From a virus, in the IMG/VR virus record IMGVR_UViG_3300045256_000381, positions 1 through 26,672 of that record: a DNA stretch of 26,672 nucleotides. One strand, written 5' to 3'. Under the pieces are notes generated by a model that made no database searches, was not told the DNA's origin, and saw only the letters and a program-made list of their open reading frames with translations. The position numbers and the translations under genes were made by a program. Positions within the stretch are counted from its first letter, which is position 1; each line of letters begins with the position of its first letter. Below, in pieces: positions 1 to 26,537 of this stretch.

Positions 1-44
1 TGCTGCACTGCTAACTACTTCCCGGTTTTCTCCAGGCACAAGCC

Positions 45-145
45 CATCACCTTCATTTCCTACCCTAAGGGGCTACCATCACGTCTCGCTCGCTTGTGGG
101 GGTAGCAATTTCACTGTAGGGGCTTTCAGCTCCGAAGAACGGTAA
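45..145 (-). repeat. IS605-type right-end / omega-RNA-like unit A
   Basis: Read on the minus strand, this unit starts with a core near TTACCGTTCTT, followed by a GAAAGCCCCTAC box (plus 116-145). A hairpin with stem GCTACC/GGTAGC (plus 72-77 and 101-106) comes next, then a terminal box TTAGGGTAGGAAATGAAGG ending in GATG at plus 45-48. The same order occurs in units at 445-545 (minus), 26091-26206 (minus) and 26243-26361 (plus). Against the unit at 26243 the similarity stops abruptly after GATG, which marks a likely element end. The core translates as LPFFGAESPY, preceded by an open frame, and looks like the tail of a TnpB protein. Assignment to an IS605-type right end is inference from layout and from TnpB remnants elsewhere in the window. 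Confidence 0.5.
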
Positions 146-444
146 GATTGGTTTCATGGGGCGTATCGCTCCGTAGGTGGAGACACTTTACTCCATAATT
201 TTGAAAAGTAAAGCCCAAAATGGGGGGCAAAAAAGGAAAATTCCCCCAAAATTGGAAAAAGTCAACTACCCTGACTCTAAACGGTCTTAGCTTGTCATTT
301 CAAATTTCGTGTCTGGACTAACCGATGGTCGGCATTTCACACCGACCGACACGAAGACAAACTCAAAAAACAATAATAGGCAGGTTGATGGTTACCTAAC
401 TATATTATAATTTTAAATTTTTTTAACAGTTAGTACTATGGCTC
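146..444. other. non-coding, hairpin-rich stretch
   Basis: No convincing gene is seen. A nested hairpin at about 309-355 has an outer stem CGTGTC/GACACG and an inner stem GGTCGG/CCGACC. Another possible stem pairs CTTTACT near 187 with AGTAAAG near 206, and runs of G and C near 222-248 can pair. The stretch lies between two right-end-like units and is probably the interior of decayed mobile elements, but no coding match was recognised. Confidence 0.35.
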
Positions 445-545
445 GCATTCATCCCTTATTTTGAAGGGGTTTGGTCGTTTTTAACTTTCGCTAAACGACC
501 AAACTTTTTAAGAAAGTAGGGGTTTTCGGCTCCAAAGAACGGTAA
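445..545 (-). repeat. IS605-type right-end / omega-RNA-like unit B
   Basis: On the minus strand, a core TTTACCGTTCTTTGGAGCC with a CCCCTAC box (plus 516-545) is followed by a perfect 12-bp hairpin, GTTTGGTCGTTT/AAACGACCAAAC (plus 469-480 and 493-504). A terminal box AAGGGATGAATGC ends at plus 445. The core could encode FFGAENPY, matching the peptide read from unit A. The hairpin shares TTTGGTCGTT with the unit at 26091-26206. Read on the plus strand the hairpin is followed by TTTTT and could also end a plus-strand transcript. Confidence 0.5.
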
Positions 546-555
546 AGCACAAAGT

Positions 556-589
556 AGAAAAAATGGAGACCCGGCAAAGCCGGTTCTCC
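556..589 (-). terminator. rho-independent terminator of the 612-866 gene
   Basis: On the minus strand an 11-position stem, GGAGAACCGGC against GCCGGGTCTCC with one A/G mismatch and a TTT loop (plus 565-589), is followed by ATTTTTTC. It lies 22 bases past the stop of the small minus-strand gene and is well placed to end the 3004-to-612 transcript. Confidence 0.85.
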
Positions 590-611
590 TGTGGTTTGTT
601 CCAATCAGAAC

Positions 612-866
612 TTAGAAAAGGCGTTGGTTACAAACCGTAACAGCAGCGACGTATGCCTCGGAACGGGCGTTGCAAAGGCGGTTAGGCTTTGAACAGGATA
701 CCCGGAACAGACGATTAGTTGTACAAATATAAACTTTGTTACCTTCCGTGTCCACTTTCTTCAAACACTTGAAGTGGCGATACTTAGTGCCGTCATTACG
801 GGTGCCAACACAGCGGTTCCCCGGTAGAGGCGGCAAGGTTGCCAGCATGTCTTCGATAGTTTCCAT
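612..866 (-). CDS. small Cys-containing hypothetical protein
   Basis: An 84-aa protein I do not recognise. It has six cysteines spread over residues 19-79 but no clear CxxC pair, so a zinc site is possible but not shown. There is no signal peptide or membrane segment. The start has a GGAG ribosome-binding site about 7 bases upstream and the gene is followed by a strong terminator. It is the last gene of a likely minus-strand transcript that begins at 3004 with a glycosyltransferase. The short gap of 56 bases to the gene before it supports co-transcription. Function unknown. Confidence 0.6.
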   Translation of the reverse strand: METIEDMLATLPPLPGNRCVGTRNDGTKYRHFKCLKKVDTEGNKVYICTTNRLFRVSCSKPNRLCNARSEAYVAAVTVCNQRLF

Positions 867-922
867 AAATATCTCCGTTAACGGAATAGGACTATAGCGA
901 AGGTATCTAGCAGTATTAACTA

Positions 923-1687
923 TTATTTCATTATCGCTCGGATGTCCTCTAAAGCCAACTCACGATTCCTTTCCACGACCTTCAGGTTGTTTGGATTACG
1001 ACGACAAATCTCTGTAATCGTGCATTCCCCTTCGTGATAAACAAAGCTGTTTCCGGCGATGGCTTGTTTGTAACCGTGCTTTCGCATCCGATAAGCAAAT
1101 TCCTCGTCCTCGTACCCGCACAAGGGGTAAGACTTGATCGGCCCGCCCACATGCTTAAACAAATCTCTATGGCACATGAAGCAGTACATCGACAAGTGGG
1201 TATCATCCAGAATGATCGTGTCGGCCTTTTTCGGCTCCAGAACACCCTTCTGGCGTTCGTCCCCGCCCAAGGGATTGTTTGTCTTCGGTGCGACCATTCG
1301 CACCCCCTTGTCCTTCAGTGTCAAGAGCGGATAAGCCATACTCGTTAACCAATTCAAGTCGTCCACCACACAGTCCGACTGAATGACCACAACCCAGGGG
1401 TTTTCTGTGTTTTCCAGCCCGGCCCGGATCGCCCCGCCAAACCCCTTTTGTTCGTTACACCGCAGACACTTAATTGTCTTCAGTGAATTCAAATCATTAA
1501 TGAATTGCTCGTTCGGCGAATGGTCGTCCACCAAGCAAATCTGGTACGGGTTACTGTAAGTGTTGCGGAAGATGCTCTCTAATAAGCGTCGTACCTTGTC
1601 GTACTGTCCGTGAAACGGAATGATGATGTCCACGGCAGAAAAAAAGTCCCGCCGCTTAATCGGTCGGGCTTCATGTACCTTCGGCAT
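923..1687 (-). CDS. family 2 glycosyltransferase
   Basis: A 254-aa soluble GT-A type transferase expected to move a sugar from a nucleotide-sugar donor. The first strand VDIIIPFHG (19-27) and LVDDHS (52-57) form the nucleotide-binding start of the fold. KGFGGAIRAGL (81-91) matches the GT2 helix. The metal site is the variant IQSDC (102-106), not a plain DxD. GYEDEEF (191-197) supplies the usual acidic catalytic pair and YHEG (217-220) the late histidine. It resembles rhamnosyltransferase-like GT2 enzymes, but donor and acceptor cannot be read from sequence. Its start codon overlaps the stop of the upstream gene (TAATG) and has a strong GAGGAG site, so the two are translationally coupled. Confidence 0.9.
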   Translation of the reverse strand: MPKVHEARPIKRRDFFSAVDIIIPFHGQYDKVRRLLESIFRNTYSNPYQICLVDDHSPNEQFINDLNSLKTIKCLRCNEQKGFGGAIRAGLENTENPWVVVIQSDCVVDDLNWLTSMAYPLLTLKDKGVRMVAPKTNNPLGGDERQKGVLEPKKADTIILDDTHLSMYCFMCHRDLFKHVGGPIKSYPLCGYEDEEFAYRMRKHGYKQAIAGNSFVYHEGECTITEICRRNPNNLKVVERNRELALEDIRAIMK

Positions 1688-2223
1688 TAAATCTCCTCAG
1701 AGAACTGGTCAAACCACTTTTTCAACACCACATCCACTTCGCCTGGGTTGGAGTGGAAGTAAACGAGTGACGAGGTTTGAGCGGCATACTCGGCAAGTTT
1801 AGTCTTGTCATACTTGTTGCCGACGCCGATCACCAAAATCTTACACTCCAAATCCTCTTTATCGTTCAACAAAATGACCTTTTTCAAGCTAATTAGGTCA
1901 TTCGACAAGAAGCTGTCCGTTATCAGGATCAACGCTTTGTCAACGTAGCTGTCACCCCGAGCAGCGACGTATAAAGTTTGCTTCAGTGCAAACCCCAGGT
2001 CGAAATTGAACCCGTCCGTCTCGAAGTTGCCCAGAGCGGCTGTCTTCTCGCCCTGCGAGTACACAGAGTCAAGAAGCTGTGGATGGTACAAGTAAAAACC
2101 GTCTTCGCTCTCCGTTTTACAGACGAACCGAACCAGGGACTTACGCACTTCGTCCACCACACGCCTACCCTCATGTTCACGAGAAGATAGGTGGAGTACG
2201 AGTCCAATATTTTTAGTTTTCAT
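1687..2223 (-). CDS. vWA-like domain protein with degenerate metal site
   Basis: A 178-aa protein whose strand and motif pattern fits a von Willebrand A (Rossmann-like) fold: IGLVLHLSS (6-14), KALILITDSF (96-105) and CKILVIGVGNKYD (127-139). The canonical metal-binding DxSxS is replaced by HLSSR (11-15), and the usual threonine loop is not evident near 70-80, although the aspartate in ITDSF is kept. Metal-dependent ligand binding is therefore doubtful. It overlaps the upstream glycosyltransferase gene by 11 bases and the downstream one by 1 base, so it is made together with two sugar-transfer enzymes. A scaffold or adhesion role is possible but not shown. The fold call rests on pattern only. 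Confidence 0.65.
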   Translation of the reverse strand: MKTKNIGLVLHLSSREHEGRRVVDEVRKSLVRFVCKTESEDGFYLYHPQLLDSVYSQGEKTAALGNFETDGFNFDLGFALKQTLYVAARGDSYVDKALILITDSFLSNDLISLKKVILLNDKEDLECKILVIGVGNKYDKTKLAEYAAQTSSLVYFHSNPGEVDVVLKKWFDQFSEEI

Positions 2224-3004
2224 TGCGTCCCTTTCGTTTGTTGCGATGTTTGACTCGGATCGGGTTGTTGAAATCTTTCAGGGGGTGGAGAAGCGAGGCA
2301 TTCGGGAAGTCCTCGGCCTCCGTCAGTTCCGGGCGGAACCGACAGGGGAAATATTCGTAACTGCCATGCCATCGACCCGGTGTGTAAGTGGCGAAAACCC
2401 CGATGTTACCGCCCATTTCTCGGGCCAGTGTCGGATACATGTGTTCAGAAACGTCGTATCCGTCGTACCCCGGCATAAATCCCTGAGAGAACGAGTTGGT
2501 GGCTGCGATGAATCGGTCTAATAAATTAATTTCTCGCAGTCGGTCGATGAATTTACGGCTGAAGAAAAGCATGCAGCCAAGAAGGTAATACCCCTTAGTT
2601 ATCTTCTTACCGATGATGGCTTCGACGATAGGAATCCTCACTTCGTTTACCGCTCCGTCATTTCCCAACATCCAAATGTTCTGATCGTCAGCCATCTGGA
2701 GGTTATATTTAAAACGGTCGGACGCAACCAGGGCGTCGTAATCCATGTAACAATACCAGTCCGAATCGTACATCTCGGTCAGGTTTTTTAACCCAAGGGC
2801 AACGTTTCGGTAAGGGGCACGGGGATAACCATGTTTGAAGCCTTTAATGTATGGTACAGGCAGTTTAACGTCGGAGAAATTGTTGCTGCTGGCACCGTCA
2901 ATGACCAAGAGAATGTCTTTGGTCATGTGGGCTTGAATCGACTCCACCGTGTCCAGCACCAAATTAGGATTGGCGTGAATATTTAAAAATGTTGCTACTC
3001 TCAT
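2213..3004 (-). CDS. glycosyltransferase-like protein (GT-A fold)
   Basis: I place the start at the ATG at 3004 because the product then begins with a fold-like strand MRVATFLNIH. An in-frame upstream start would add 19 unrelated residues and overlap the divergent promoter region. The 263-aa product has LLVIDGAS (32-39), as in GT2-type nucleotide-binding loops, and WYCYMDYDALV (83-93) with DYD as the DxD metal site. The C-terminal half is rich in aromatic residues and has no known module I can name. It is the first gene of a tight minus-strand cluster (overlaps of 11 and 1 bases with the next two) and is divergent from a methyltransferase gene 41 bases away. Donor and acceptor are unknown. 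Confidence 0.75.
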   Translation of the reverse strand: MRVATFLNIHANPNLVLDTVESIQAHMTKDILLVIDGASSNNFSDVKLPVPYIKGFKHGYPRAPYRNVALGLKNLTEMYDSDWYCYMDYDALVASDRFKYNLQMADDQNIWMLGNDGAVNEVRIPIVEAIIGKKITKGYYLLGCMLFFSRKFIDRLREINLLDRFIAATNSFSQGFMPGYDGYDVSEHMYPTLAREMGGNIGVFATYTPGRWHGSYEYFPCRFRPELTEAEDFPNASLLHPLKDFNNPIRVKHRNKRKGRNEN

Positions 3005-3045
3005 AGTTACACTCAGGAAATAGAATAATATAGTAAGAGGTGAAA
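3005..3045. promoter_or_regulatory. divergent promoter region
   Basis: The 41 bases between two divergent genes contain the AT-rich, nearly symmetric TAGAATAATATAGTA, which offers a -10-like box in both directions. On the plus strand an AGAGGTG ribosome-binding site at about 3036-3041 points to the ATG at 3046. No clear -35 box fits inside the gap. Confidence 0.4.
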
Positions 3046-3963
3046 ATGGCTGACAAAACAAAAGTCAACTTACTCATGGATAAGTTAGCACAAGTATTCC
3101 AAGAACTGAAAACCGCACTGAACGATGAACCCGCAACACCCGTTGTGGCTCAGTCTGCCCCGACTGCTCAACCGGAGTTAAACAATTTTGACCGGCTCCG
3201 GCAAGCCCTCGAAACAGACCGTTGGCCGGAGGCTGTCAACAAGAACCTCGTGTGCGATCCGAACTCCGAGATTGACAAGATGGAACGTGGGCGTGGGATT
3301 GTTGAACTTCTAGTAGAGGACAATTTGAGCGGACTGAAATTCCTTGACTACGGCTGTGGCGAAGGGTACTCCGCATTCTACGCTTCCGAAAAGAACCCAA
3401 CTATCTCTGTCGGTTACGACATTAAAGAACAAAACTGGAAACACTTCCAAAGCAAACCGAACCTATTGTTAACTAATGACAGAAAAGCAGTCGCAGGCAA
3501 CGGTCCTTACGATGTCATCCTGATGTTTGACGTAATCGACCACCTGGACGGTGCTACCCCGGTGGAAATTCTTGCAGACGCCGCCAGCCTACTCTCGCCG
3601 ACCGGCAAAATTTACATGCGGACACACCCTTACACCTCTCGCCACGCTACGCACCTGTACCACAATCTTAACAAGGCATTCGTACACTTAGTCTTCACTG
3701 AAGATGAGCTAAAACAAATCGTCCCGGACACAAAGCACGTTGAAAAGAACTTAGGCGTAACCACCCCAATACTGTCTTACGGCAAATGGATCGAAGAAGC
3801 CAAACTTACCGTCGTTCATAGACGAGAAATCAAAGACAAGGTTGAGAATTTCTTCAAAATCCCGCAAATCGCCGAACGGATCATGAAAAACACCAAAATG
3901 ACTTCGTTCCCTGAGTTTCAGTTATCAATACAATTCATCGATTTTATACTAAAAAAATCCTAA
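3046..3963 (+). CDS. class I SAM methyltransferase (paralog 1 of 3)
   Basis: The ATG at 3046 is chosen over a GTG at 3040 because AGAGGTG is well spaced from it. The 305-aa product has a polar N-terminal helix (1-45) and then a Rossmann methyltransferase core. KFLDYGCGEGY (98-108) is SAM-binding motif I, GYD (123-125) the acidic end of strand 2, and YDVILMFDVIDH (155-166) motif IV-like. A block RTHPYTSRHATHLY (192-205) followed by LNKAFVH is shared with the genes at 8471 and 10260, as are WPEAV (60-64) and a C-terminal QFIDFILKK. The acceptor is unknown. Clustering with glycosyltransferases suggests a sugar O-methyltransferase. Confidence 0.85.
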   Translation: MADKTKVNLLMDKLAQVFQELKTALNDEPATPVVAQSAPTAQPELNNFDRLRQALETDRWPEAVNKNLVCDPNSEIDKMERGRGIVELLVEDNLSGLKFLDYGCGEGYSAFYASEKNPTISVGYDIKEQNWKHFQSKPNLLLTNDRKAVAGNGPYDVILMFDVIDHLDGATPVEILADAASLLSPTGKIYMRTHPYTSRHATHLYHNLNKAFVHLVFTEDELKQIVPDTKHVEKNLGVTTPILSYGKWIEEAKLTVVHRREIKDKVENFFKIPQIAERIMKNTKMTSFPEFQLSIQFIDFILKKS

Positions 3964-3984
3964 CAAATATATTAAGAAATTAGT

Positions 3985-4467
3985 TCATGACTTCGTGGAA
4001 TCTCTCAAAAAGGCATAAAAGTCGCTGGCAGAACGCTCCTCAAAATCACCCGTGTTTTCGAAATACCGAACAGGGCACCTGAGTCTGGGGTAATCAACCC
4101 CACGATACCATTTATCAAACATCGGCCGGTGCTGATCGGGGTCACTAACCTCGACTCGGTACTGGGCGATGATTTTTTCGTAAGGGGCGTAGAGAACGTA
4201 CACTGTCGTCTCTGGTGGAAAATAAAGACCAGTCGGATCACTCAAGTGCCAACCATCCAGGGTAAAATTTGTATTACAAAACCAACTAACGTGAGCCATT
4301 GCTTCACTGATAGGAAGCCCGAAAGTCTCGATTTGATGCCATGGAAAGAGAGCGTCAAAACAAACGTAACGGTTGGGCAGCAATTTGGCGAAAGTGGTTT
4401 TGCCCACGCAACTTTGACCAAAAATAATGATTTTATCACTGTGCGGCGAGACGTTTAATACTTTCAT
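3985..4467 (-). CDS. P-loop NTPase, kinase-like
   Basis: A 160-aa protein with a textbook Walker A, GQSCVGKT (17-24), after a short hydrophobic strand IIIFG. The size and the early P-loop fit small nucleoside, sugar or shikimate-type kinases. No firm LID or base-recognition motif is visible, so the substrate is unknown. In this setting a kinase that supplies an activated sugar or sulfate donor is conceivable, but this is only inference. It is convergent with the methyltransferase gene (21-base gap) and stands alone on its strand. AAGG lies about 10 bases before the ATG. Confidence 0.75.
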   Translation of the reverse strand: MKVLNVSPHSDKIIIFGQSCVGKTTFAKLLPNRYVCFDALFPWHQIETFGLPISEAMAHVSWFCNTNFTLDGWHLSDPTGLYFPPETTVYVLYAPYEKIIAQYRVEVSDPDQHRPMFDKWYRGVDYPRLRCPVRYFENTGDFEERSASDFYAFLRDSTKS

Positions 4468-4610
4468 CCCAATCTACCTTATATCACTCAGTACTATTTT
4501 TTTTTTAACCGACTGTATACCACACCTTTTTCAATTGTTCAAAAACACCATGCTGGTAGCTTTAATATCTTATTTTTTGAAAAAATCCAGAATATTATGA
4601 TGCATTTAGG

Positions 4611-5246
4611 ATGATTACTATTGTAACTGTTAATTTCCACAGCAACGACTTCCTTGAGCTTCTTCGAGAGTCCATCGACAGGTTTAGTGTAACAAGTCCT
4701 CAATTTCTTGTCATCGACAATACCATAGAAAACAAGGGGCATGGCGAAGCCATGAACCTCGGCGCAGCCCAGGTAACAACAGACTACACGATGTTTGTTG
4801 ATGTTGATACCCACTTTACGCTCAACGCCTGGGATGAAATGCTACTCACCGCTATTGAAAACTGCGAAGCTATCTTCGGGCGAGGCGTTCCCGTAAAGCC
4901 CGTCCGTCCTGCCTGCATGTTCATGCAGTCTTCAGTCGCAAAAAACTACGATTGGAGTGCAACCCCGGGCTACAGAGGGCACCGGGTCACACCTGACGGT
5001 TTCGATGTGGGTGTAAAAGCATACTGTAACATTGTGAATGACGGCAAGAAGCATGCCTTCTTCGAGACGATTCCGAACCGTTATGGGACAGCCAACGGAG
5101 AAGAATTCTGTTGGCAAGGCGTTCCGTTCATTTATCATCATTGGCACGGAACACATTTGGCAGCCCGGCAGACCGACTTTCCGTCAGTGGACTTACTGGC
5201 GGACAAGAAGAAACTTTTTGACTCAATTCCTTGGCGGTATCTTTAA
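4611..5246 (+). CDS. family 2-like glycosyltransferase
   Basis: A 211-aa GT-A type transferase. MITIVTVNFHS (1-11) is the typical first strand, FLVIDNT (32-38) the nucleotide-binding loop, GHGEAMNLG (43-51) the helix after it, and FVDVDTHF (62-69) carries the DVD metal site. The C-terminal part has GEEFCWQG and HHWHGTH, where the histidine cluster may replace the usual acceptor-site motif. The family is usually longer, so this is a compact form. No good ribosome-binding site precedes the ATG, and TATTAT lies about 13 bases upstream, so a very short leader is possible. Its last 119 bases are also coding on the other strand. Confidence 0.8.
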   Translation: MITIVTVNFHSNDFLELLRESIDRFSVTSPQFLVIDNTIENKGHGEAMNLGAAQVTTDYTMFVDVDTHFTLNAWDEMLLTAIENCEAIFGRGVPVKPVRPACMFMQSSVAKNYDWSATPGYRGHRVTPDGFDVGVKAYCNIVNDGKKHAFFETIPNRYGTANGEEFCWQGVPFIYHHWHGTHLAARQTDFPSVDLLADKKKLFDSIPWRYL

Positions 5247-6039
5247 CGAATTTACGAGTTAGTTCGCTTTGTAATGCGTAATACTCTGCGTAAGTCAGCG
5301 GCATATTCCACTTCAGCAAGTAATAAATAAAATTGTATAGAGACAATTTGATGAGTTCTTTGTCTGACAACACCTTCTCGTCATGTTGCTTATTGTGATG
5401 GTAGTGGAATTCGTTGACCTTCGTGTCAACGAATTTACAACCGCCCACTTTCGCCGTCATGTGGAAATCCGTGTCGGCGAACGCACCGTGTCCACAATAC
5501 CAGGGATCAACCCCGTTGAGGCGATAAAAGGTGGATTTAGTGAAGGCGGTGTTTCCTGACATGACGTTTTTGCCCGGTCCAGGCGGGGGATCGGCGAAAC
5601 GAGGTTCATAACGGAATGCCGCCAGAGATCGCTCGTCGAGCAAGAAATCATCTCGTGGCAATAAATCCTGTAAGACCTGTAAAGACATGTCTTTAAGTAC
5701 GAAATAATGATGAGAAGAAAAAATAAATACGTCGTCCGAGATCAGTTTTTTGATTAACGATAGGTACTCCGGGGGTAGAAGCCGGTCGGAATCTAAATAC
5801 CAGACGATATCATGTTTGGCGGTTGCTACGCCAGCCTCCCACATGTTCGACCAGGAGAACTTGCCGTTAATACGGGGGACAACAATAGGAGTGAAATCAC
5901 GAGGAACGAGCCTTGGTTTGCCATCACAAACTAAAACTTTTTGACAATTTTCGTATCCTTGCATAGCTTCGAGGCAACGGATCGTGTAGTCTAGCTGAAT
6001 TTCACGGTCCGGTGAGAACATAATAAATATTGAAACCAT
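5128..6039 (-). CDS. GT2 glycosyltransferase with galactosyltransferase-like C-terminal region
   Basis: The start at 6039 puts the fold's first strand MVSIFIMFSPD at the N-terminus. Earlier in-frame starts would overlap the divergent gene at 6049. In the 303-aa product WYLDSDRLLPP (80-90) carries the DSD metal site, NVMSGNTAF (158-166) and GVDPWYCGHGAFADTDFH (176-193) form a galactosyltransferase-type C-terminal region, and a late histidine follows in FHYHH. It shares this layout with the gene at 12948 and is probably a diverged paralog. That gene ends where this one reaches about RKFVKD. The last 35 or so residues here, rich in S, P and R, read antisense to the end of the 4611-5246 gene and look like a run-on extension. 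Confidence 0.85.
   Translation of the reverse strand: MVSIFIMFSPDREIQLDYTIRCLEAMQGYENCQKVLVCDGKPRLVPRDFTPIVVPRINGKFSWSNMWEAGVATAKHDIVWYLDSDRLLPPEYLSLIKKLISDDVFIFSSHHYFVLKDMSLQVLQDLLPRDDFLLDERSLAAFRYEPRFADPPPGPGKNVMSGNTAFTKSTFYRLNGVDPWYCGHGAFADTDFHMTAKVGGCKFVDTKVNEFHYHHNKQHDEKVLSDKELIKLSLYNFIYYLLKWNMPLTYAEYYALQSELTRKFVKDTAKELSQKVSSCPPVSPLTESRSAGLPNVFRANDDK
6022..6029 (+). promoter_or_regulatory. T4-type late promoter-like box (AATAAATA)
   Basis: AATAAATA fits the NATAAATA late motif of T4-type phages and lies 19 bases before the ATG at 6049, which would leave a leader of roughly a dozen bases. It sits inside the N-terminal coding part of the opposite gene. A single short match in AT-rich DNA, so weak on its own. 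Confidence 0.3.
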
Positions 6040-6048
6040 AGATAAACC

Positions 6049-6789
6049 ATGCTCACGTTCAAAAATTTCATGATGGTCGAAAGCGGTTGGTTCGGAGGAA
6101 GAACCCAATATGCCCACGGCACGGGTCAAAATTTTTCGATGGGCAGGGACATGTTGTACAACCGACAGTACACTTCCAGAATGTACTCGCCAAAGCTGCC
6201 CATTGGCGTTGACTTCGATACGTGGTTACACCAAAAAATAAGTAACATAACAAAATTCTTGGATTTCTTATACCACCGTTATCAGGACAATGACCTTGTG
6301 GTGGTCAACAAACGGCTTTGTATAGCGTCATCCGAGATAGAACACTGGGATAAACAAATAGTAAAAAAGCTCATAAATAATGGCGTGCTGGTACAAATGC
6401 CGTCTCAGAATGTGATGTGTCGATGGTTAGAGCGTGACCTATCAAACTTCATTCCGAGCTTCAAGCATCACCAGCCGGTGATAATGAAAGATGGCGCAAC
6501 TAAAGTCAAGAGCATGTTTTTTACCACAGAAGAAACGTTGAGCCGTCTTGTACAGAACCCGGAAATGTCCGCAGAATTGAAAAAGTGGATCGCACACGGA
6601 TGGATGGCTCAGAAAGCTATGCCGCTCACAGGGATCATATTTTACGCTATAGACACGATACGTATTGTTCTCCTTATGCAGCGGCAAAAAGACATCTTCG
6701 GTGCCATGAATATAGCAAAGAAAATAGGCAACCTAGCGTCTCAACCTGGAGCGTATCAAGCCAACCCAAACTCTAACGTCAGATATTAA
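6049..6789 (+). CDS. hypothetical protein with capsid-targeting-like N-terminus
   Basis: A 246-aa protein without a recognisable domain. Its first residues, MLTFKNFMMVE, match the T4 internal-protein capsid-targeting peptide pattern (MKTYQEFIAE in T4 IPIII) and the next gene's MITFKEFIKE. In T4 such peptides direct proteins into the prohead and are cut by the gp21 protease after an (L/I)xE site. Here MVE is a near match only. A hydrophobic stretch around 190-205 (LTGIIFYAIDTIRIVLLM) could be a membrane or core helix. A late-promoter-like box lies just upstream, and the next gene follows after 8 bases. An injected or internal head protein is a reasonable inference. Confidence 0.65.
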   Translation: MLTFKNFMMVESGWFGGRTQYAHGTGQNFSMGRDMLYNRQYTSRMYSPKLPIGVDFDTWLHQKISNITKFLDFLYHRYQDNDLVVVNKRLCIASSEIEHWDKQIVKKLINNGVLVQMPSQNVMCRWLERDLSNFIPSFKHHQPVIMKDGATKVKSMFFTTEETLSRLVQNPEMSAELKKWIAHGWMAQKAMPLTGIIFYAIDTIRIVLLMQRQKDIFGAMNIAKKIGNLASQPGAYQANPNSNVRY

Positions 6790-6797
6790 ATATAAAA

Positions 6798-7223
6798 ATG
6801 ATAACCTTTAAAGAATTCATAAAAGAACAAGATGAAAACCCGTATCAGACATTTCTGAAGATGCGTCATGGGTTGGGTTGGGGTGATCTAAAACAAGCCC
6901 CGAAGGGAACCGCTACGGCTGTAGCAGATGCGGAGACGACATTACCGACTCGTACCATGACTCGCAACCCTTTGGAAATAAAACTGTCCAATGAAGTCCA
7001 AGCCGGGCACAAAATGGGCAGTATAGTTCCTCGGTCTGTCATTGCACGCATGACGGCAAACAACCCGGAAGATATCCGTTCGTTTATTGCCCCTGACCGG
7101 CTCAAAGCCGGTCAGATTTACCCGTTCATTCAACAGCGTCAAGCAGGTCGAGATGTCGGTGGCATCGTATACAACCAAATGTTCCCGCTACACAGCTTAC
7201 TCCGGCTCCTCAACCTTCACTGA
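6798..7223 (+). CDS. small hypothetical protein with capsid-targeting-like N-terminus
   Basis: A 141-aa protein beginning MITFKEFIKEQ. Against the T4 IPIII targeting peptide MKTYQEFIAE it keeps M, T, E, F, I and E at the same positions, and IKE fits the gp21 cleavage rule (L/I)xE exactly. The remainder is polar and unrecognised. It is co-directional with the previous gene and has no clear ribosome-binding site, so it may depend on coupling. Its stop TGA lies inside a repeat copy (7222-7246) that looks like a TnpB tail. The last few residues may therefore come from an insertion and the original C-terminus may be lost. Probable internal virion protein. Confidence 0.65.
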   Translation: MITFKEFIKEQDENPYQTFLKMRHGLGWGDLKQAPKGTATAVADAETTLPTRTMTRNPLEIKLSNEVQAGHKMGSIVPRSVIARMTANNPEDIRSFIAPDRLKAGQIYPFIQQRQAGRDVGGIVYNQMFPLHSLLRLLNLH

Positions 7224-7246
7224 TCTTTAGAGCCGAAAGCCCCTAT
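7222..7246 (+). repeat. partial copy of the TnpB-tail core repeat (unit C)
   Basis: CTTTAGAGCCGAAAGCCCCTA closely matches the core of the unit at 26243-26361, and one frame reads FRAESPY as in the other copies. The hairpin and terminal box of the full units are not recognisable here. It begins at the stop codon of the preceding gene, so it may mark an old insertion at that gene's end. Confidence 0.45.
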
Positions 7247-7630
7247 CTTCGAACGGAGCGAGAAAGTAAGACAGCCATGTCACATACCGCAGGGCAAGCC
7301 CTGCGGCTTGGATTGATCCAAGAAATGTTCTTGAACCAACCGCATAGAAGAAGTTTGTTGAATCTTATTCAGGGCAAGCCTTGTCGGATCGGTACTCCGA
7401 CCCGACAACCGCAAGCGACTGCGGTTTCCGCCGCCCGTTTTATGACAAACTCTTAAAAAAAAGTTAATGCTATAATACAGTTGGGTAAACATCAATCTAA
7501 ATATTGCCGTCTATCAAATCTGTTTCCGGATTCCAGATTTTCTGGCACGTCGGAAACGGTTCTGTCAAACATGAAACTTGGAATAGTGAGTTGCTGGTTC
7601 TGAGCGAAGCAAAACGTCAGCGGTAGTTAG
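7247..7630. other. 384-base structured intergenic region
   Basis: No gene is supported. Strong hairpins occur one after another: CCGCAGGGC/GCCCTGCGG (7287-7306, 9 bp), CTTGGAT/ATCCAAG (7307-7322), a nested TTGTCGG-TCGG/CCGA-CCGACAA stem (about 7379-7407) and CCGCA/TGCGG (about 7409-7424). After a promoter-like site at 7468 comes GTTTCCG/CGGAAAC around CCAG/CTGG (about 7521-7560). CAGGGCAAGCC occurs twice. No U-run follows the stems, so they are not simple terminators. Non-coding RNA or decayed element ends are both possible. Confidence 0.5.
7468..7476 (+). promoter_or_regulatory. extended -10 promoter-like site
   Basis: TGCTATAAT is a perfect extended -10 element for a sigma70-type polymerase. 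No clear -35 lies at the usual distance, which is tolerated with an extended -10. Transcription would start near 7483 and run into the hairpin at about 7521-7560, with no plus-strand gene downstream. This suggests a short RNA or antisense transcript. Confidence 0.45.
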
Positions 7631-8431
7631 TTAAATGATGGCTGCTAGTTCTCTGATGCTTTGTTGATACCATCTCAGATATTCATCAATTGCCAGAGAT
7701 TTTTTAATACGCATTGGTCGTCGCTCTAGGGTTTTGGACTTATCTTCTAACGGAGACGTAATGCCGTCAACCATACCGGCAATGCAATACAAATAGTCGG
7801 GATCATCGGTAGTCACATACTTGTACAAAAAATAATTAAAGTGCACCTTTGACTTTTCGTAGATATTTTCGCCCCCCATGAACACACCCTGATCCCACTC
7901 CGACCCATATTTCCGCAAAGTCATATACACATCACGGTACTTGTGATAACAAAAAAACTTTCCCTTTACCACATGTTTCCCAATAGGCGATCTGGCTAAG
8001 TAGTTCTGAATGCAGGTGTAACCAGCTGCCGTCAACCTTTGAAAATGCTCCACATCCGGCGTCGGGCTGTCTACAAACGGATAAGCACGCATAATATCCG
8101 TTCGCAACACCTTCAGGGCAAGAATACGTTGTTCAGTAAGTGTGTCCCACAAAGGGAAAAGGATCGAGTGCCAATTCGGATCGTGAGAATATTTATCAAT
8201 CGCCCGCTCGATTCGTTCGAAGGCATCCGTGTCTAATATCATATCGGCATCGAGCGGAACAAGGTAAGGGGTATTGGCAGACTGGAGCATCAAATTCAAA
8301 GCTTTGACTTGTGGCGTGACGTTCCGTACCTCTCGAAACTCAATCTTGTCCCGAAAATGGGATATGGCGGCAAGACAGTCTTTCTCAGTTTCTTCACCAC
8401 ATGTCATTAAACAAAACGTTATTCGTTTCAT
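7631..8431 (-). CDS. family 2-like glycosyltransferase
   Basis: A 266-aa GT-A type transferase. MKRITFCLMTCGEE (1-14) gives the first strand, VKALNLMLQSANTPYLVPLDADMIL (42-66, in part) the donor-binding helix and the DAD metal site (61-63). The second half, with KGKFFCYHKYR and MGGENIYEKS, is not a standard acceptor motif I can name. It is the last gene of a three-gene minus-strand cluster (GT8-like, methyltransferase, this gene), 39 bases after the methyltransferase stop, and has a TGAGGCG ribosome-binding site. Probably acts in the same glycan pathway. Donor unknown. Confidence 0.8.
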   Translation of the reverse strand: MKRITFCLMTCGEETEKDCLAAISHFRDKIEFREVRNVTPQVKALNLMLQSANTPYLVPLDADMILDTDAFERIERAIDKYSHDPNWHSILFPLWDTLTEQRILALKVLRTDIMRAYPFVDSPTPDVEHFQRLTAAGYTCIQNYLARSPIGKHVVKGKFFCYHKYRDVYMTLRKYGSEWDQGVFMGGENIYEKSKVHFNYFLYKYVTTDDPDYLYCIAGMVDGITSPLEDKSKTLERRPMRIKKSLAIDEYLRWYQQSIRELAAII

Positions 8432-11261: not shown

Positions 11262-12042
11262 TAACTTTTCGCCCCCTCATACCCTCTATGATATCTCGCA
11301 GTTTGGGAATGTTGGGCAAAAATTTGTCCCGAGAGGGCATATCGAAAAACTTCTTAAAATCTGCGGTAACGTATTTGTGAACCTTGTACTCGGCTGACAA
11401 ATTGTATTTGGCACAAACTTTATTGGCCTCTTTAATTGAAAACTCGTAAGTCAGGTTGTTTCGATAATAGTTGTCGCCGTGGAAGCATGCCCTGGTGTGA
11501 ACGGCAGGCGTTTCGTCAATAATACCGATCTTATCCGTCGGGTTTCCTAAAATCATGTTCCATATGAACTCGATACCCCAATGTGACTCATTCTCGGTAA
11601 AGGTGTGTTTAACCGCCTGGAGACACACCCGTGAAAAAATCGGACACATGATCTCCACCCAATTCGTAAAACGCACCCTGGAGAACGGGACGGCCGCACT
11701 GATGGGAATAGAGATAAAGCCAATGATGCCGGGCTGACCCAACATCAGGTCAAACTCCTTGAACGAATTGAACATCTTGCTGACGCCATCAGCGTCAAGA
11801 TAAATGTCATCGTCCGGCACCCAAATGTTCTGATAATTATTGAACAAATCAGGGTTTGCTTCAAGAGCTTGTAACAAAATCTTATATTTAGTACCCTTAA
11901 AAGTGGAATAGAACTGTCCGTCCTTCTCGTACCGTCCGGTCACGTCGCCGTAGTAGTTAATGTACACATCAAAGTCTGAACAGTACAGCCAGTGTTGATG
12001 CAAGGAGGTATCGCCCGCCGCTACGAAAACGAGGTTTTTCAT
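11254..12042 (-). CDS. DUF707-like putative glycosyltransferase
   Basis: A 262-aa protein. YQNIWVPDDDIYLDADGV (70-87) contains an acidic PDDD/DAD cluster after a strand, as in GT-A metal sites, and HWGIEFIWNMILG (154-166) resembles the GWG-type motif of the DUF707 group, whose members are thought to be glycosyltransferases. The family call is tentative. Its start overlaps the stop of the upstream sulfotransferase-like gene (ATGA), with AGGA about 8 bases before, so the two are coupled. The C-terminus is basic (GMRGRKVII) and overlaps the convergent methyltransferase gene by 8 bases. Confidence 0.65.
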   Translation of the reverse strand: MKNLVFVAAGDTSLHQHWLYCSDFDVYINYYGDVTGRYEKDGQFYSTFKGTKYKILLQALEANPDLFNNYQNIWVPDDDIYLDADGVSKMFNSFKEFDLMLGQPGIIGFISIPISAAVPFSRVRFTNWVEIMCPIFSRVCLQAVKHTFTENESHWGIEFIWNMILGNPTDKIGIIDETPAVHTRACFHGDNYYRNNLTYEFSIKEANKVCAKYNLSAEYKVHKYVTADFKKFFDMPSRDKFLPNIPKLRDIIEGMRGRKVII

Positions 12043-14862: not shown

Positions 14863-16798
14863 ATGAACTCAGCACAGGTGTCGCCACCTGTACTGGTCTT
14901 CAAAACCGTACTTGAGAGTTTGCCCCTCATACGGCTCCTCGAATAGTTAGTCGTTTTCATCGACACTCCCCTCTGAGTTCGCAGCCGGTCCATGCTCGCT
15001 GTCGTGACAGTGACCATGTAGAGCCACCCGGTTCGACTTCTTGTTGTTACCGTGGTCGCCATCCTTGTGATGTACCTCGATAACGTCGTCCGGCAAAAAA
15101 CTTAGCCCACAGTTCGGACACCTACCACCCTGCCCCTTGATTAGCTTCGCCAACCAGAGGGTGATGCCGGGATAGTATCCTGTCCTCGCCGCCCAATAAG
15201 TCCAGTCACCGTCGAAGGGGCTTTTGTCGCCCTGAACCTTCACATGACGCTGAATATGCACCATGCTGTGTTTCAGGAGCGTCTTGACGCCCTCCTTTGG
15301 TCCGAACATCCAGAGTGGCATACGCCAGTACCTTCTGACGATCCATTTCATCGGTTTGTTCGGGTGTCTCCATCTCGCCCAAGTTCGGAGGTTGTGGTAC
15401 ATCACATCGTCAGCCTTTTGGAACGACTTCGTGCTGACCACAGTACGGTAGTAGTTGCTCCAGCCACGGATGATCGGGTTCAACCGTGCGATCAGAGCCT
15501 CCTGTGCGGCTCCCCGGTGCTGTCGAATGACTTCTGCAATCTCCCGACAGTGCAACTTTACCTTCTCCTTGCTCGGTCTGATGATAGTCTTGAAGCCCAG
15601 CAACTTCCCCTTTGTCGTCTTGCCACTGTGCGTCTTCCCCACCGGGAACTGTCGCACATAGAAGCCGAGAAAGTGGAACCCGATCTCACCATCCACTTCA
15701 TTCATGGTATGAGAGATGCGGGTCTTGCTTGGTTTCAATTCCAAACCCATGCCCTTGAGCCATTCCGAAGCGACTTCCTTACACTTCTCGATTACGTCCC
15801 GATCCCGGTGCATAACAACAAAGTCGTCTGCGTACCGTACCACGGTCGGTGTCCAACAGATGTTTCTATCCCCCGGCATGGTCTTCGGGATGGCGGCTTG
15901 CACCGCTACCTCCAGACCATGCAGAGCGATGTTAGCCAGCAGGGGCGAGATGACCCCTCCTTGCGGCGTACCATCGTCTGTTGGGAAAAGTGTACCGCCA
16001 TCGAGGACACCAGCCTTTAGCCACGCACGGACGAGCCGTTCGATCTGCGGAATGGTGTCCAATTTCTTCAACAATGCCTCATGGTTGATGCGGTCGAAGC
16101 ACTTGGCTATTTCGGCGTCTAGTACGAACTTCGGCATGTGCCTCACGCTCGTAAAGATCGCCGCAACCGCATCATGTACAGAGCGTCCCGGTCGGAATCC
16201 GTAGCTGTTTGGCTCAAAAAGAGCCTCCCACTCCGGTTCAAGTGCCAGCTTGACCAGTGCTTGTAAGGCACGGTCTGCCATCACAGGTATGCCCAACGGT
16301 CGTTTCTCGTCCGTGCCGGGTTTGGGTATCCAGACACGACGCACAGGAAACGGCTGTTGGTCGAGGCTCAGGCGTTCTAACAGTTCCAGACGTTCATGTG
16401 GTTCTAGGGCTGCAACGCCGTCGATACCAGCAGTACGCTTTCCCCGGTTGTCCTGAGTCACCTTGCGAACGGCAAGGCACTTAGCCGACCAAGAACTCAT
16501 CAAGAGACGCTGCAACCTATGGACTAGGTTCCTGTCTCCCTTTTGGGATGCTCGGTAGATTCTCTGTTGAAGTGCGTGGACTTCCCGTTGGACTTTCGCC
16601 CACGGTATGTCACGCCACTCCTGTACTCCAGTTTCCTGTGTACTCATGGTATCCTTCAACTTCAACTCTACCTTCTAACTAATCGTGATCTCGTCAGCGT
16701 ATCCACCGGCTTTCCCGGTGGCGTTTGCTTCTAGATCAATCCTGCCTCTGAGTACCATACGCTTGACTGCTACTCCCGAAGGAGAGGTATTTCAGAGG
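14863..16798 (-). mobile_element. group II intron (3' half secure, 5' end not found)
   Basis: Minus strand. Domain V is at plus 14902-14937: GAGCCGTATGAGG, a short loop, then a GTACGGTTTT return. Domain VI follows, with stem ACAGGTG/CACCTGT around GCGA and a bulged branch-point A at 14869. The intron then ends in AT at 14863, placing the A at position -7, the usual distance. The maturase gene fills domain IV. Upstream of it are a CCACCGG/CCGGTGG hairpin (16703-16721), a CTCC-TTCG-GGAG hairpin (16773-16784) and a CCTCTG/CAGAGG long stem (16745-16798). No GTGYG 5' splice site is found in the expected place. Domain I needs several hundred more bases, but a TnpB-like remnant begins at about 16859, so splicing is doubtful. 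Confidence 0.8.
14947..16647 (-). CDS. ltrA: group II intron reverse transcriptase/maturase with HNH endonuclease
   Basis: The ATG at 16647 has AAGGA at good spacing; an in-frame TTG six codons earlier is less likely. The 566-aa protein is complete. The RT palm has IPKPGTDEKRPLGIP (107-121), SYGFRPGRS (148-156), GTPQGGVISPLLANI (226-240) and catalytic YADD (272-275). Maturase domain X has NPIIRGWSNYYR (390-401). The C-terminal HNH nuclease has CPNC (510-513), EVHHKDGDHGNNKKSN (524-539) and LHGHCH (543-548). This set fits the chloroplast-like (CL) class. It copies intron RNA into target DNA and aids splicing. It is open with all motifs intact, although the surrounding ribozyme looks truncated at its 5' side. 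Confidence 0.95.
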   Translation of the reverse strand: MSTQETGVQEWRDIPWAKVQREVHALQQRIYRASQKGDRNLVHRLQRLLMSSWSAKCLAVRKVTQDNRGKRTAGIDGVAALEPHERLELLERLSLDQQPFPVRRVWIPKPGTDEKRPLGIPVMADRALQALVKLALEPEWEALFEPNSYGFRPGRSVHDAVAAIFTSVRHMPKFVLDAEIAKCFDRINHEALLKKLDTIPQIERLVRAWLKAGVLDGGTLFPTDDGTPQGGVISPLLANIALHGLEVAVQAAIPKTMPGDRNICWTPTVVRYADDFVVMHRDRDVIEKCKEVASEWLKGMGLELKPSKTRISHTMNEVDGEIGFHFLGFYVRQFPVGKTHSGKTTKGKLLGFKTIIRPSKEKVKLHCREIAEVIRQHRGAAQEALIARLNPIIRGWSNYYRTVVSTKSFQKADDVMYHNLRTWARWRHPNKPMKWIVRRYWRMPLWMFGPKEGVKTLLKHSMVHIQRHVKVQGDKSPFDGDWTYWAARTGYYPGITLWLAKLIKGQGGRCPNCGLSFLPDDVIEVHHKDGDHGNNKKSNRVALHGHCHDSEHGPAANSEGSVDEND

Positions 16799-16859: not shown

Positions 16860-17383
16860 TAAACCTTGCTCCCTGCGAGCAGTTCTTGCAGGAAGACTTC
16901 GCCTCGGAGAGTTTCACTCCGACACCAACTATTGCCAACGAACTCTTTTAGGTCCGTCAGTCGAACTGGCAACGCTGTGAGCGTGGCTTCAATGTTGTCG
17001 TTCAGATGCTTCCACAAAGACCATGAATGTACTTTTCGGTTTCTGTACTTTGCTGCAAGCGTTCCAAAAACCAGTTCTTTCAATCACTTTGAGCAAGCCT
17101 TATAGAACGACAATTTTTTGTTATATCCCATGCCCCTTCTGTCAATCACGTAGGCAGCAGACTCATGGATCGTTACCTTGTACATCCACCTGTACTTGTA
17201 CTTGCCAATGATGCTGGTGAACGCCGGATTTACTTTGCGATACGCAACTCCATGTTCTACGCACTTGCGTTCCAGCAAGGTCAGGAACTTCCTCCAGACG
17301 AAATTACTTTGCTTTCTCTTCCACTGGCGGCTACCAGTTTTGTCCTTGAGTTCGCCGTTCACGACGACATATTCCTTGGTCAG
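16859..17383 (-). pseudogene. TnpB-like (IS605 OrfB-related, no zinc ribbon) remnant
   Basis: One reading frame of about 175 codons is broken by TGA at 17084-17086 and bounded upstream by TAA at 17384. It contains WRKFLTLLERKCVEHGV, then RKVNPAFTSIIGKYKY and IHESAAYVIDRRGMGY. These match the C-terminal half of the TnpB-related OrfB group (VNPAYTS, IG-x-KY, AAxVIxRRGLG), which lacks the CxxC zinc ribbon of classical TnpB. After the TGA the frame continues with KVHSWSLWKHLN, also family-like. The RuvC-I part is missing, so this is a 5'-truncated, inactive copy. Where TnpB is active it is an RNA-guided nuclease. It lies directly downstream of the 610-aa structural gene and abuts the intron. Confidence 0.65.
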
Positions 17384-19836: not shown

Positions 19837-22383
19837 TCACAACTCTGACATGTCGATTTCTTCCTCATCCTGCTCCGACCCGTAATCCTTGATTTCCAAA
19901 TCGTACTTGGCAATATCGTCCAACGCCGGTTGCGGGAGCGGCTGACTACCGCCTATAGGTGGAGTTTCTGCTGTCATGCCCCCGCCCGGCATTACCCCAG
20001 GACCACCCGGAGGCGGCGGGGCTGCGCCAGGAACACCACCCAAAGGATCGCCCCCGCCAGCCATCGGGTCGCCACCCAACATCGGTTGGACTTGACCGGA
20101 CTCCGCACCGACCTGCTGCTCGTCGTCCGATGGCAAACCAACACCCAAGAGTTGCGGGTTCTGAGCAATAATCTGCAACTTAAGGTCTTCGATCTTCTGA
20201 ATTTTCATACGGGCCAACATGATTTTGGCTTCGTCTTCCGAGTATTTCATCCACTTTGTTAAGATGTCGAAGTCGCTCATCAACTGTGACCCCTTCAAAG
20301 ACCCGGCATTACCGATGCGTGCCGTAACGACCTCAGACCGGGTAAGTTCACGCCAGTCCGAAGGCGGCGTCATCTTAATCACCAAGTCCTCGTACATATC
20401 CTCCGGGAACCCACGAAGTTTCAGGTGGCGGTCGCACAGTTCCCATAACCCGTCTTCTATGTGGCTCTGAAGCCGCTCGATCATCCGGGCGAACTTCACA
20501 TCCTGGGCTGACAACGAAATTCGATTCGCCTGAAAGTCCTCGTTGTTGAAATAATTCTTCGGGAAATTCATCGACACGAATAACTTGTTGCGGAAGTAAA
20601 CCGTATCGTCAATTTCACCCAGGTTTTGTGCCCCCGGAAGAGTCTCTATACGGGTGTTCGAGTTCGGCCGGATCGGAATCCAGTAGTCCTCGTCCGCAGC
20701 CGGTGCGTGCCACCGTTCTTCTACGGCGGACGCGCCATCAGCGTTAAACTGTTTCGGCACCTTTTTCTTCTTAAACTGATCCTTCATTCGCTCAATGAAG
20801 GCTTCGGCACGGGCACCACTATACTGTTGTGTATCAATATAAAACACACGCCGTTCGGGGGCACGAGTCAGTCGGTACACCAACATGGCATCTTCCATAA
20901 GACGCAACTGGTGGGCCGGACCACGGGCAGCTTCTATTAGTGAAACGCCATACGGGTAGAACGTCTTCCGGTCATCCCCAATTCTGATATGCACAATTTG
21001 CTGCGGGGCAAATCGAATCGCCTTCGCCTGCATCAAATCCAAGTCGGTCGCCTTCGTAACCTCGACACGAGCCAAAGAGTCGTAGTCCGGGCCTTCCTTT
21101 GATTGCTGGAACTCTACGAGTCGTCCTTTCGTGGTCTCAATACGGTACATCGTATCCGGCGGAAGCGGGACAATGTTAACGATACCACGAGACGGTTTCT
21201 CAGGGTCGATTACGATTTCCCAGAAATCGTCGCCGTTAATAAATAACTGCTTTGCTCGGTTCCAGCACTTCTTTTGATCGAGATTTAACATCTTTCGGTG
21301 GAAGCACAGGAACTCAAGTTCTTCTTGAACCTCCCGGTTCTTGCACACTATCTGGAAAGCCCGCCCTTTATCATCTTTCTGACAGTTGTGGGCCACACCC
21401 CAGTCCGTACAAAAATTCTCGTATTTCTCTACCGACAGGTCGTACACCTTTCGAACGCCGCCCGGGGCAATACCGATCACCCTCCGAGCCGGCTCCTTCT
21501 TCGCAAGTTGTTTGAGTTCAGCATTACTAAACCCGCACCTTTCCATGTGCCGCTTGATCGTCTCGTAGTCGCCGTGTCCCGCCTTGTAAATCTGGCGGAC
21601 GTTTAACCCTTCAGACAACATGCGACAAAACTTGTTGCCCTTCTCGTAAAACGGGTCGCTGTGTCCGGTCTTCCACTCGTCCACGAACTGCCGCTCATTG
21701 ACCCAACCTTTGCTGTTAGTAAAGATGCGAGGGAACTGACGCACCTTCGGCTGGTCTTTACCGACCCGAGGGTTTACTCGGTAAAACGGCATCAACAAAT
21801 CACCTTCCTTCAGCTCACCTGCTGTCAGCCACTTTTGGTTTTTGGCAAGGATGCGATGATCTTTGGTGGCGACGAAGGATGACCCGTCGTCGAGCATGAC
21901 CCGAACGGTTTCTTCTTCCTTAACAAACCGAGGGTCATAGGCCCAACCCAATGTGTAATCTTCTTTTGCAAAGTCCCAGCAATATACCAGAAAGCGTTCA
22001 TCCTTCTTATTTTCCGCAAGCCATTTGAGGGTACGAAACCCCCCGTCGTATGCCGGGGTTGCGACCTTAGTATCACCCGCCAGACATGCCTCGTCGGCAA
22101 AGACAGTCATCGCCATCTCGATCTCGGGTATATTTCGTAACCGCTCGTACTCTTTATAACGGTGGAGGCGGTTAGTGACCGTTGACAGGTCAACCATCTC
22201 ATTCGTGTCACGAAGACGAACAGACCCACGGCCGCCCAAAGTGCCGTCGGCCATAGCCCGCACGTCGGGCATGGCATCCGGTTGTGATACACCGGCGTTT
22301 GGAAAGTCACGCCCGTCTCGCCGAGCGAGTGGGTCGTTCTGAAACGCTCGTGTGAAAAGCTTGAAAAAATCGTACCAAGCCAT
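19837..22383 (-). CDS. portal protein (gp20-like) containing an intein
   Basis: The 848-aa precursor would give a mature portal of about 614 aa after removal of the 234-residue intein at 100-333. T4 gp20 is 524 aa. The exteins join as ...VFADEA-CQKDDKGRAF, matching the T4-type region where an 'xxADEACQ' helix leads into the portal stem core. Later motifs such as YPYGVSLIEAARG and NYFNNEDFQANRISLS are typical of gp20 homologs. The portal is the 12-subunit ring at one head vertex through which DNA is packed. The C-terminus is a Gly/Pro-rich, probably flexible tail followed by an acidic end. AGGA about 9 bases upstream and a GATAAATA box 51 bases upstream serve the start. It lies upstream of the structural gene and downstream of the terminase, as in T4-type modules. 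Confidence 0.9.
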   Translation of the reverse strand: MAWYDFFKLFTRAFQNDPLARRDGRDFPNAGVSQPDAMPDVRAMADGTLGGRGSVRLRDTNEMVDLSTVTNRLHRYKEYERLRNIPEIEMAMTVFADEACLAGDTKVATPAYDGGFRTLKWLAENKKDERFLVYCWDFAKEDYTLGWAYDPRFVKEEETVRVMLDDGSSFVATKDHRILAKNQKWLTAGELKEGDLLMPFYRVNPRVGKDQPKVRQFPRIFTNSKGWVNERQFVDEWKTGHSDPFYEKGNKFCRMLSEGLNVRQIYKAGHGDYETIKRHMERCGFSNAELKQLAKKEPARRVIGIAPGGVRKVYDLSVEKYENFCTDWGVAHNCQKDDKGRAFQIVCKNREVQEELEFLCFHRKMLNLDQKKCWNRAKQLFINGDDFWEIVIDPEKPSRGIVNIVPLPPDTMYRIETTKGRLVEFQQSKEGPDYDSLARVEVTKATDLDLMQAKAIRFAPQQIVHIRIGDDRKTFYPYGVSLIEAARGPAHQLRLMEDAMLVYRLTRAPERRVFYIDTQQYSGARAEAFIERMKDQFKKKKVPKQFNADGASAVEERWHAPAADEDYWIPIRPNSNTRIETLPGAQNLGEIDDTVYFRNKLFVSMNFPKNYFNNEDFQANRISLSAQDVKFARMIERLQSHIEDGLWELCDRHLKLRGFPEDMYEDLVIKMTPPSDWRELTRSEVVTARIGNAGSLKGSQLMSDFDILTKWMKYSEDEAKIMLARMKIQKIEDLKLQIIAQNPQLLGVGLPSDDEQQVGAESGQVQPMLGGDPMAGGGDPLGGVPGAAPPPPGGPGVMPGGGMTAETPPIGGSQPLPQPALDDIAKYDLEIKDYGSEQDEEEIDMSEL
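21385..22086 (-). other. mini-intein in the portal protein
   Basis: Residues 100-333 of the portal precursor. It starts with C at 100 in the block A pattern CLAGDTKV, has block B VATKDHRIL (171-179) with the conserved T-x-x-H, block F RKVYDLSVEKYENF (311-324), and block G GVAHNC (329-334) with the terminal H-N and C as the first C-extein residue. All catalytic residues for class 1 splicing are present. There is no LAGLIDADG nuclease. Instead, residues about 220-300 contain NVRQIYKAGHGDYETIKRHM, which looks like a helix-turn-helix of the kind found beside homing endonucleases. Self-splicing is expected. Mobility is probably lost. Confidence 0.9.
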
Positions 22384-25680: not shown

Positions 25681-25711
25681 GTGAACTACCCCGCCGCTAA
25701 AGACGGCAAGG
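25681..25711 (-). repeat. IS605-type right-end hairpin
   Basis: On the minus strand CCTTGCCG pairs with CGGCGGGG (25689-25711, with G-T pairs) around TCTTTAG and is followed by TAGTTCAC. This is the classical right end of TnpB-bearing elements, a GC-rich hairpin ending in a short conserved box. It follows the TnpB remnant immediately. The element end lies 19 bases before the terminase start codon. Confidence 0.6.
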
Positions 25712-25993
25712 CTTCCGACACAACCAATAGCCACCTCTGATGGGTCTTATATCAGGGCAGTCGGCTACCCCTCTCGTTCCAAGAGTTCTAATCCTCAAGC
25801 ATTCATTGTTTATATTGACACTGGCATTTTCATCACGATTATGTGAAGTCTAGCAATTCCGTTCTTTCTCTTCGCTTAATTCTCTGTTATGATAATTACA
25901 CTCAGAACAGAGTTGTGATGACGGAAACCATCGACTTACTTTGATGATATCTCGACCATACCATTTTGTCTTATACATAAACTTATCGAAAAA
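25697..25993 (-). pseudogene. TnpB C-terminal remnant (RuvC-III and zinc ribbon)
   Basis: About 95 codons match the C-terminus of classical IS605 TnpB: KTKWYGRDIIKVSRWFPSS, then CSECNYHNRELS with the first CxxC, then NRDENASVNI, which carries the RuvC-III aspartate, and a tail GVADCPDIRP. TAG at 25850-25852 breaks the frame where the second CPxC should be, and TAA bounds the upstream end at 25994. The rest of the gene is gone. Active TnpB cuts DNA guided by an RNA made from the element's right end. This copy cannot. It is inserted just upstream of the terminase. Confidence 0.8.
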
Positions 25994-26090
25994 TTATCTG
26001 TTTTCTATCCCTTTTTCATGGGTCTTTTAATTGGGTAAGTGGAAGCCAGATTATATCAGTGTCGGAATTTAAATAATTTCTACTATGGAG

Positions 26091-26206
26091 GCTTTCATCC
26101 CACTACCCTAAATAGGTTAGCCCTGTTTGGTCGTTCACTTCGCTCACTTCCTGCACGAGGCTAACTTTTCTCATTCAGAGAAAAGTAAGGGGTTTCTCGC
26201 CCCTAT
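26091..26206 (-). repeat. IS605-type right-end / omega-RNA-like unit E
   Basis: On the minus strand AGGGGCGAGAAACCCCT (hairpin, plus 26188-26204) is followed by a perfect 8-bp hairpin CTTTTCTC/GAGAAAAG (26165-26185). A long stem GTTAGCC/GGCTAAC (26116-26165) comes next, then a terminal box TTTAGGGTAGTGGGATGAAAG ending near 26091. Core, hairpin and terminal box occur in the same order as in units A, B and D, and the loop shares TTTGGTCGTT with unit B. Confidence 0.5.
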
Positions 26207-26242
26207 GGATAAACTTTAATTTTTAAACTAACTTATAGAGCA

Positions 26243-26361
26243 TTTACCGTTCTTTAGAACCGAAAGCCCCTACATCGTAGATGCTACCCACCACAAGCGA
26301 GCGACCGAAGGGAGCGAGACGTGGGAGGGGTAGCCCTTTAGGTTAGGGGATGAAGGCGATG
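26243..26361 (+). repeat. IS605-type right-end / omega-RNA-like unit D
   Basis: Plus strand. TTTACCGTTCTTTAGAACC and GAAAGCCCCTAC form the core, followed by a hairpin GCTACCC/GGGTAGC (26283-26334) with a GAGCG-rich loop, then TTTAGGTTAGGGGATGAAGG and GATG at 26358-26361. CCCCTA of the core can pair with TAGGGG of the terminal box, and the other units allow the equivalent pairing with different bases. The core reads LPFFRTESPY in one frame. It is an inverted relative of unit A at the other edge of the window. Confidence 0.5.
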
Positions 26362-26537
26362 CACTAAAGATCGTCTCAGAAATTTCTCCTTCTTAAAGCA
26401 AGATAAAACATAGTCAAACAGGATTCAGATGGGACAACAATCGCACGACTGAAAGTTACCCAAAGATTGCCTGAAGGTTTTCTCTTGTTCTCGTTGTAAA
26501 AAATACGACGACAAAATTATATAAGGTTGATGAATAA
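26362..26537. other. spacer between unit D and the edge TnpB fragment
   Basis: No gene is supported. One short frame holds a CSRCKKYDD stretch at about 26485-26515, possibly a broken zinc-ribbon piece, but it is too short to name. AT-rich toward the right. Confidence 0.25.

Follow-up and report, generated by a model that had tools for sequence, protein, structure and literature searches.

The repeated hairpin units A, B, C and D of this phage contig, together with a scrap of a fifth (E), are almost certainly left ends (LE/IP_L) of insertion sequences, several related members of the IS200/IS605 family that colonized the phage lineage and that, by analogy with IS608, would be mobilized by TnpA acting in trans. 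They are relics of decayed elements and ordinary mobile DNA; the kind of element is already known, and what is new here is the additional members. An initial annotation made from the letters of the DNA had taken the units at both edges of the contig for right ends or omega-RNAs of TnpB-type elements. Its assignment to IS200/IS605 elements, its view of the units as relics and their descent from several related elements all held up; the choice of the element end did not.

The stretch that we analyzed (the window) is an entire IMG/VR record of 26,672 bases, classed as linear. It contains T4-type portal and terminase genes, and its positions 1-8000 gave no match when compared with known phages by DNA similarity. 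The T4-type portal protein is split by an intein (19837-22383, minus strand; PF07230 and PF14890). A group II intron is present at 14863-16665 (minus strand; domain V/VI match to Rfam RF00029) and adjoins a 572-aa ORF in which a reverse-transcriptase YADD motif was recognized by eye.

As the initial annotation had noticed, units A and B at the left edge share a core, a hairpin and a terminal box with the units at the right edge, and this was confirmed both by core matches and by a covariance model. Exact copies of the core TTCTTNNGANCNGAAANCCCCTA lie at 139-117 (minus strand), 539-517 (minus strand) and 26250-26272 (plus strand), and a copy with one mismatch lies at 7223-7245 (plus strand); within three mismatches, four matches were seen, compared with 0.04 expected in shuffles. 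The LE covariance model was trained solely on units and left ends from other phage contigs, without window sequence. It matched unit A (45-147, minus strand) with 76.9 bits, unit B (439-547, minus strand), the left end of a tnpB-less relic, with 53.9 bits, and unit D (26242-26361, plus strand), the left end of a tnpB element, with 100.6 bits. Units C and E are weaker copies of the unit shared by A, B and D. Unit C (26087-26214, minus strand; 23.7 bits, E 5e-5), which lies on the strand opposite to unit D at the right edge, is the diverged left end of element C and has the variant TTTAT, and unit E (7215-7279, plus strand) is a left-end fragment with a marginal match (14.9 bits, E 0.02), the remainder of which is unrecognizable.

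From the outside inward, the target motif TTTAC, which lies in the left flank, comes first; a few bases further on follow GAAAG at the foot of the hairpin, the hairpin itself and then the element interior. In unit A, these parts are the TTAC target/cleavage motif at 145-142, the guide-like GAAAG and a branched hairpin; TTTAC lies at 546-542 in unit B and at 26243-26247 in unit D. The hairpin has the form CCCCTA(C)...(G)TAGGGG, and its bulge carries a variable side arm. The left ends of the L007/L042 type have no side arm and form a plain bulged hairpin (CCCCTA-T-CCCTTTAGGGTAGGGG); the other units have their side arm at the position of this bulge. The imperfect hairpin is subterminal, and the consensus structure contains 20 pairs, 8 of which show changes on both sides, in agreement with the earlier remark that the stems differ while the pairing is kept. 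As a point against the left-end interpretation, the folding energies of units A and D as single-stranded DNA were no better than those of shuffled sequences (z −0.45 and −0.29, respectively), and unit B reached only z −2.2.

We scanned viral contigs with three patterns, and the unit turned up in over a dozen of them. Three bacterial genomes that matched the core pattern (L012-L014) have neither the hairpin nor the box downstream and are probably chance matches. On other contigs, the unit is located 5' of tnpB on the same strand in 8/8 intact or near-intact tnpB elements (G002, G004, two in G007, G008, L038, L039 and L042), at a distance of 118-383 bp, or of about 2 kb where tnpA intervenes, and never at the 3' end. 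The element of G002 is complete and has the order LE - tnpA - tnpB - RE, with the TTTAC of the left end at 201957, a Y1 tnpA (PF01797, E 3e-36), a tnpB of 389 aa and a right end (GTAGTTCAC) that ends at 205168; here the unit precedes tnpA as well. The elements of G007, G008 and L038 consist of LE, tnpB and RE without tnpA.

A strongly covarying unit of about 110 nt, placed 118-383 bp ahead of tnpB, might also act at the RNA level, and one possible interpretation is that, besides being a transposon end, it doubles as a structured RNA leader on the 5' side of tnpB or tnpA and controls their expression. However, the unit is retained in gene-less mini-elements, where only a role in mobility in cis is expected, and we consider this additional function improbable.

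In the intact elements a separate right end (...GGTAGTTCAC) is located after tnpB, and its hairpin is a different one, which reads GAAGCCGCTACCCTTTAGGGTAGCGGTAGTTCAC in G007; L007 has a related version that ends in GAGCATTCACC. Except in elements of the L007/L042 type, GTAGTTCAC forms the right border. L007 (IMGVR_UViG_3300050034_000202) is a small phage contig with a tmRNA, eight tRNAs, two tnpB and one tnpA. In L008, we observed a solo hairpin (8158-8215, plus strand) the 5' half of which corresponds to a left end and the 3' half (GGGGAGCATTCACC) to an L007-type right end, as if both ends had recombined and the interior had been lost.

The initial reading of the units as right ends, that is, as omega-RNA scaffolds followed after ATGAA by a TnpB guide, is understandable, as the stems covary and a similar hairpin (GAAGCCCC...CCCTTTAGGG...) recurs at the right end of these elements, which makes the two ends look alike. 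It is nevertheless very hard to reconcile with the position of the units 5' of tnpB in all eight elements and with their start at TTTAC. The different sequences that had been noted where a guide would start are partly there, yet the shared sequence goes on past ATGAA, as GATGAA(G/T)GCGA and beyond, and this part is conserved between independent insertions (GGCGATG...TAAAGAT); it therefore belongs to the interior of the element, which rules it out as a guide. In addition, Rfam searches at the units, with gathering as well as relaxed thresholds, detected no omega-RNA and no other family, and a model of verified right ends (the RE model), run against the window, matched no unit. We used this model because, when the window was searched for right ends as plain text, the results were at chance level except at 25681. 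Its sole real match in the window was 25681-25740 (minus strand; 42.8 bits, E 6e-9), which had been overlooked in the initial annotation. Since this segment alone was recognized by the RE model and A-D were recognized by the LE model, we take the units to be left ends and not right ends, and therefore no guide would follow them. The initial annotation had itself named a failure to align to TnpB right ends as evidence against its proposal, and this is what we found.

The borders of the elements are sharply defined. Unrelated left flanks stop at TTTAC in every copy, and the unit begins exactly there. In units A, B and D alike, the sequence is TTAC|C. GAAAG lies just 5' of the hairpin, where GAAA is invariant and AAAG is found in 12/13 aligned copies, the exception being unit B with AAAA. 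When the element was removed from L004, the frame of a PD-(D/E)XK endonuclease was restored, with a PF11645 match that spans the junction and is slightly below the cut-off; across this junction (QGL|PYDV), 28/28 uninterrupted homologues align without a gap. Likewise, removal of the element from L038 restored a thymidylate synthase frame. The joined flanks in L004, L009 and L038 restore genes without extra bases, and no target duplication is present, and the joined flanks of the G007a insertion are one base off in an A-run. The element at 216-1763 (plus strand) of L033 lies in an amidinotransferase-like gene (assigned by eye), and there too the joined flanks are one base out of frame at an A-run. 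An exact scan for an empty site of L004b found none. L041, considered as an empty site of the L009 insertion, was rejected as a chance match because its flanks fail to align. Restored frames at several insertions inside genes might also be expected if the unit were the 5' part of a self-splicing, IStron-like intron, but this is most unlikely, as no group I or group II intron match was found in L004, L007, L033, L034, L036 or L038, the mini-elements are merely 345-349 bp long and the exact DNA boundaries with TTAC/AAAG suit excision by a Y1 enzyme.

The units resemble the IP_L of IS608 (ISHp608 of Helicobacter pylori), for which C_L is TTAC, G_L is AAAG and C is preferred after TTAC (PMC5934647). 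They share with it the insertion 3' of TTAC, the TTAC|C preference and the AAAG at the 5' foot of the hairpin; furthermore, LE and RE hairpins resemble each other, and both tnpA and tnpB are present in the complete relative G002. By analogy with IS608, we infer that Y1 TnpA, supplied in trans, would bind the LE hairpin of the single-stranded DNA and cleave on the 3' side of TTAC, while GAAAG would be base-paired to the cleavage site. The element would leave as a circle and be inserted 3' of another TTAC. Compared with IS608, the LE hairpin is much more elaborate, with the large variable side arm at its bulge, and an outer GCC/GGC helix lies around an internal loop of GAAAG and ATGAA. C_R and G_R look like TCAC and GAAG, whereas they are TCAA and GAAT in IS608; these right-end motifs were assigned by position only.

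The elements of the window are decayed. Over 118 nt, unit A shares 81% identity with the left end of G002's complete tnpA+tnpB element, and the interior of element A lies past the left edge of the contig. The interior of unit B is similar to the L007/L042 left ends. On the strand of unit B and 285 bases past it, a segment at 261-319 (minus strand; GGGTAGTTGAC) matched the RE model weakly (7.7 bits, E 2.9), and its position and GTTGAC ending are suggestive of a decayed right end of element B.

Element C contains a C-terminal zinc-ribbon fragment of TnpB (25811-25993, minus strand; PF07282, E 1.8e-17) that resembles the tnpB product of G008 and has one internal TAG. This fragment is followed by the true right end at 25681-25740, which ends in GGGTAGTTCAC and whose region is 83% identical over 129 nt to the right end of G008. 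This is the location expected for the 3' end of an omega-RNA. In ISDra2, which belongs to the same element family, the reRNA derives from the RE (PMC8612924); the equivalent position here is the right end of element C, whereas units A-E occupy the opposite end of the element.

The region of unit D aligns with the G007 element at 83% identity across 328 nt and is colinear with it except for a deletion of 688 bases in tnpB at about 26570/26571. In the alignment with L033, 26243-26570 corresponds to 217-540 and 26571-26671 to 1229-1329. What remains of the tnpB of element D (26532-26672, plus strand; PF01385, E 7e-4) is the gene start with the internal deletion, running off the contig end. Element D is thus of the IS1341 type (tnpB-only IS200/IS605), as are the elements of G007, G008 and L038, with the difference that the tnpB in the window is broken. 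A further small TnpB remnant (PF07282, 26.4 bits) with unrecognizable ends was observed in the region 17084-17362 (minus strand).

The earlier statement that no intact tnpB is nearby proved correct: the window holds three tnpB remnants, at 25811-25993 (minus strand), 26532-26672 (plus strand) and 17213-17296 (minus strand). Because no tnpA was found within the window and no copy combines both ends with a whole gene, any remaining mobility of the window copies is conjectural. Both contig ends appear to sit inside repeated elements, which are a usual breakpoint for assembly.

Elements of 345-349 bp that lack tnpB yet possess a true right end in addition to the left end were found in L004 (two copies, 11692-12038 on the plus strand and 5313-4964 on the minus strand), L006, L009, L011 and L040. 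In those of L004, L006, L009 and L011, the final 130 nt share 75% identity with the tnpB-3'/RE region of L038, and in a GGAAC hairpin of this region the pairing is kept while the stems vary (CGGGC/GCCCG, CCGTT/GACGG and CTCT/AGAG, compared by eye). Several of these mini-elements have different flanks and thus different potential guides. Gene-less copies moved in trans are known as PATE-like elements, for example in Halanaerobium hydrogeniformans (PMC7290912), and the mini-elements of L004, L006, L009 and L011 are similarly short and gene-free with both ends present; element B of the window would share this likeness only if its right end is real. In contrast to PATE-like elements, those described here are found in phages, represent several independent insertions and retain the tnpB-3'/RE region of about 130 nt.

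From their sequences, the mini-elements are better candidates for orphan guides than the units of the window. With the left end joined to the tnpB-3'/RE region, they might be mobile orphan guide-RNA genes, in which each fresh insertion would create another guide, available in trans to the TnpB of the same phage or of a co-infecting relative. The units of the window are not guides of this kind, but the right end of element C might formerly have served as one. We regard this as a speculative idea with a rather small chance of being right.

Because the left and right ends share a hairpin, an annotation based only on sequence can take a left end to be an omega-RNA and thereby invent guides. The present case offers a simple test: where the unit lies with respect to tnpB, whether it borders on TTTAC, and how it scores with separate models for LE and RE. 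For the phages themselves, our results mean that this group has been colonized by several IS200/IS605 elements and that it carries gene-less mini-elements that are testable as orphan guides.
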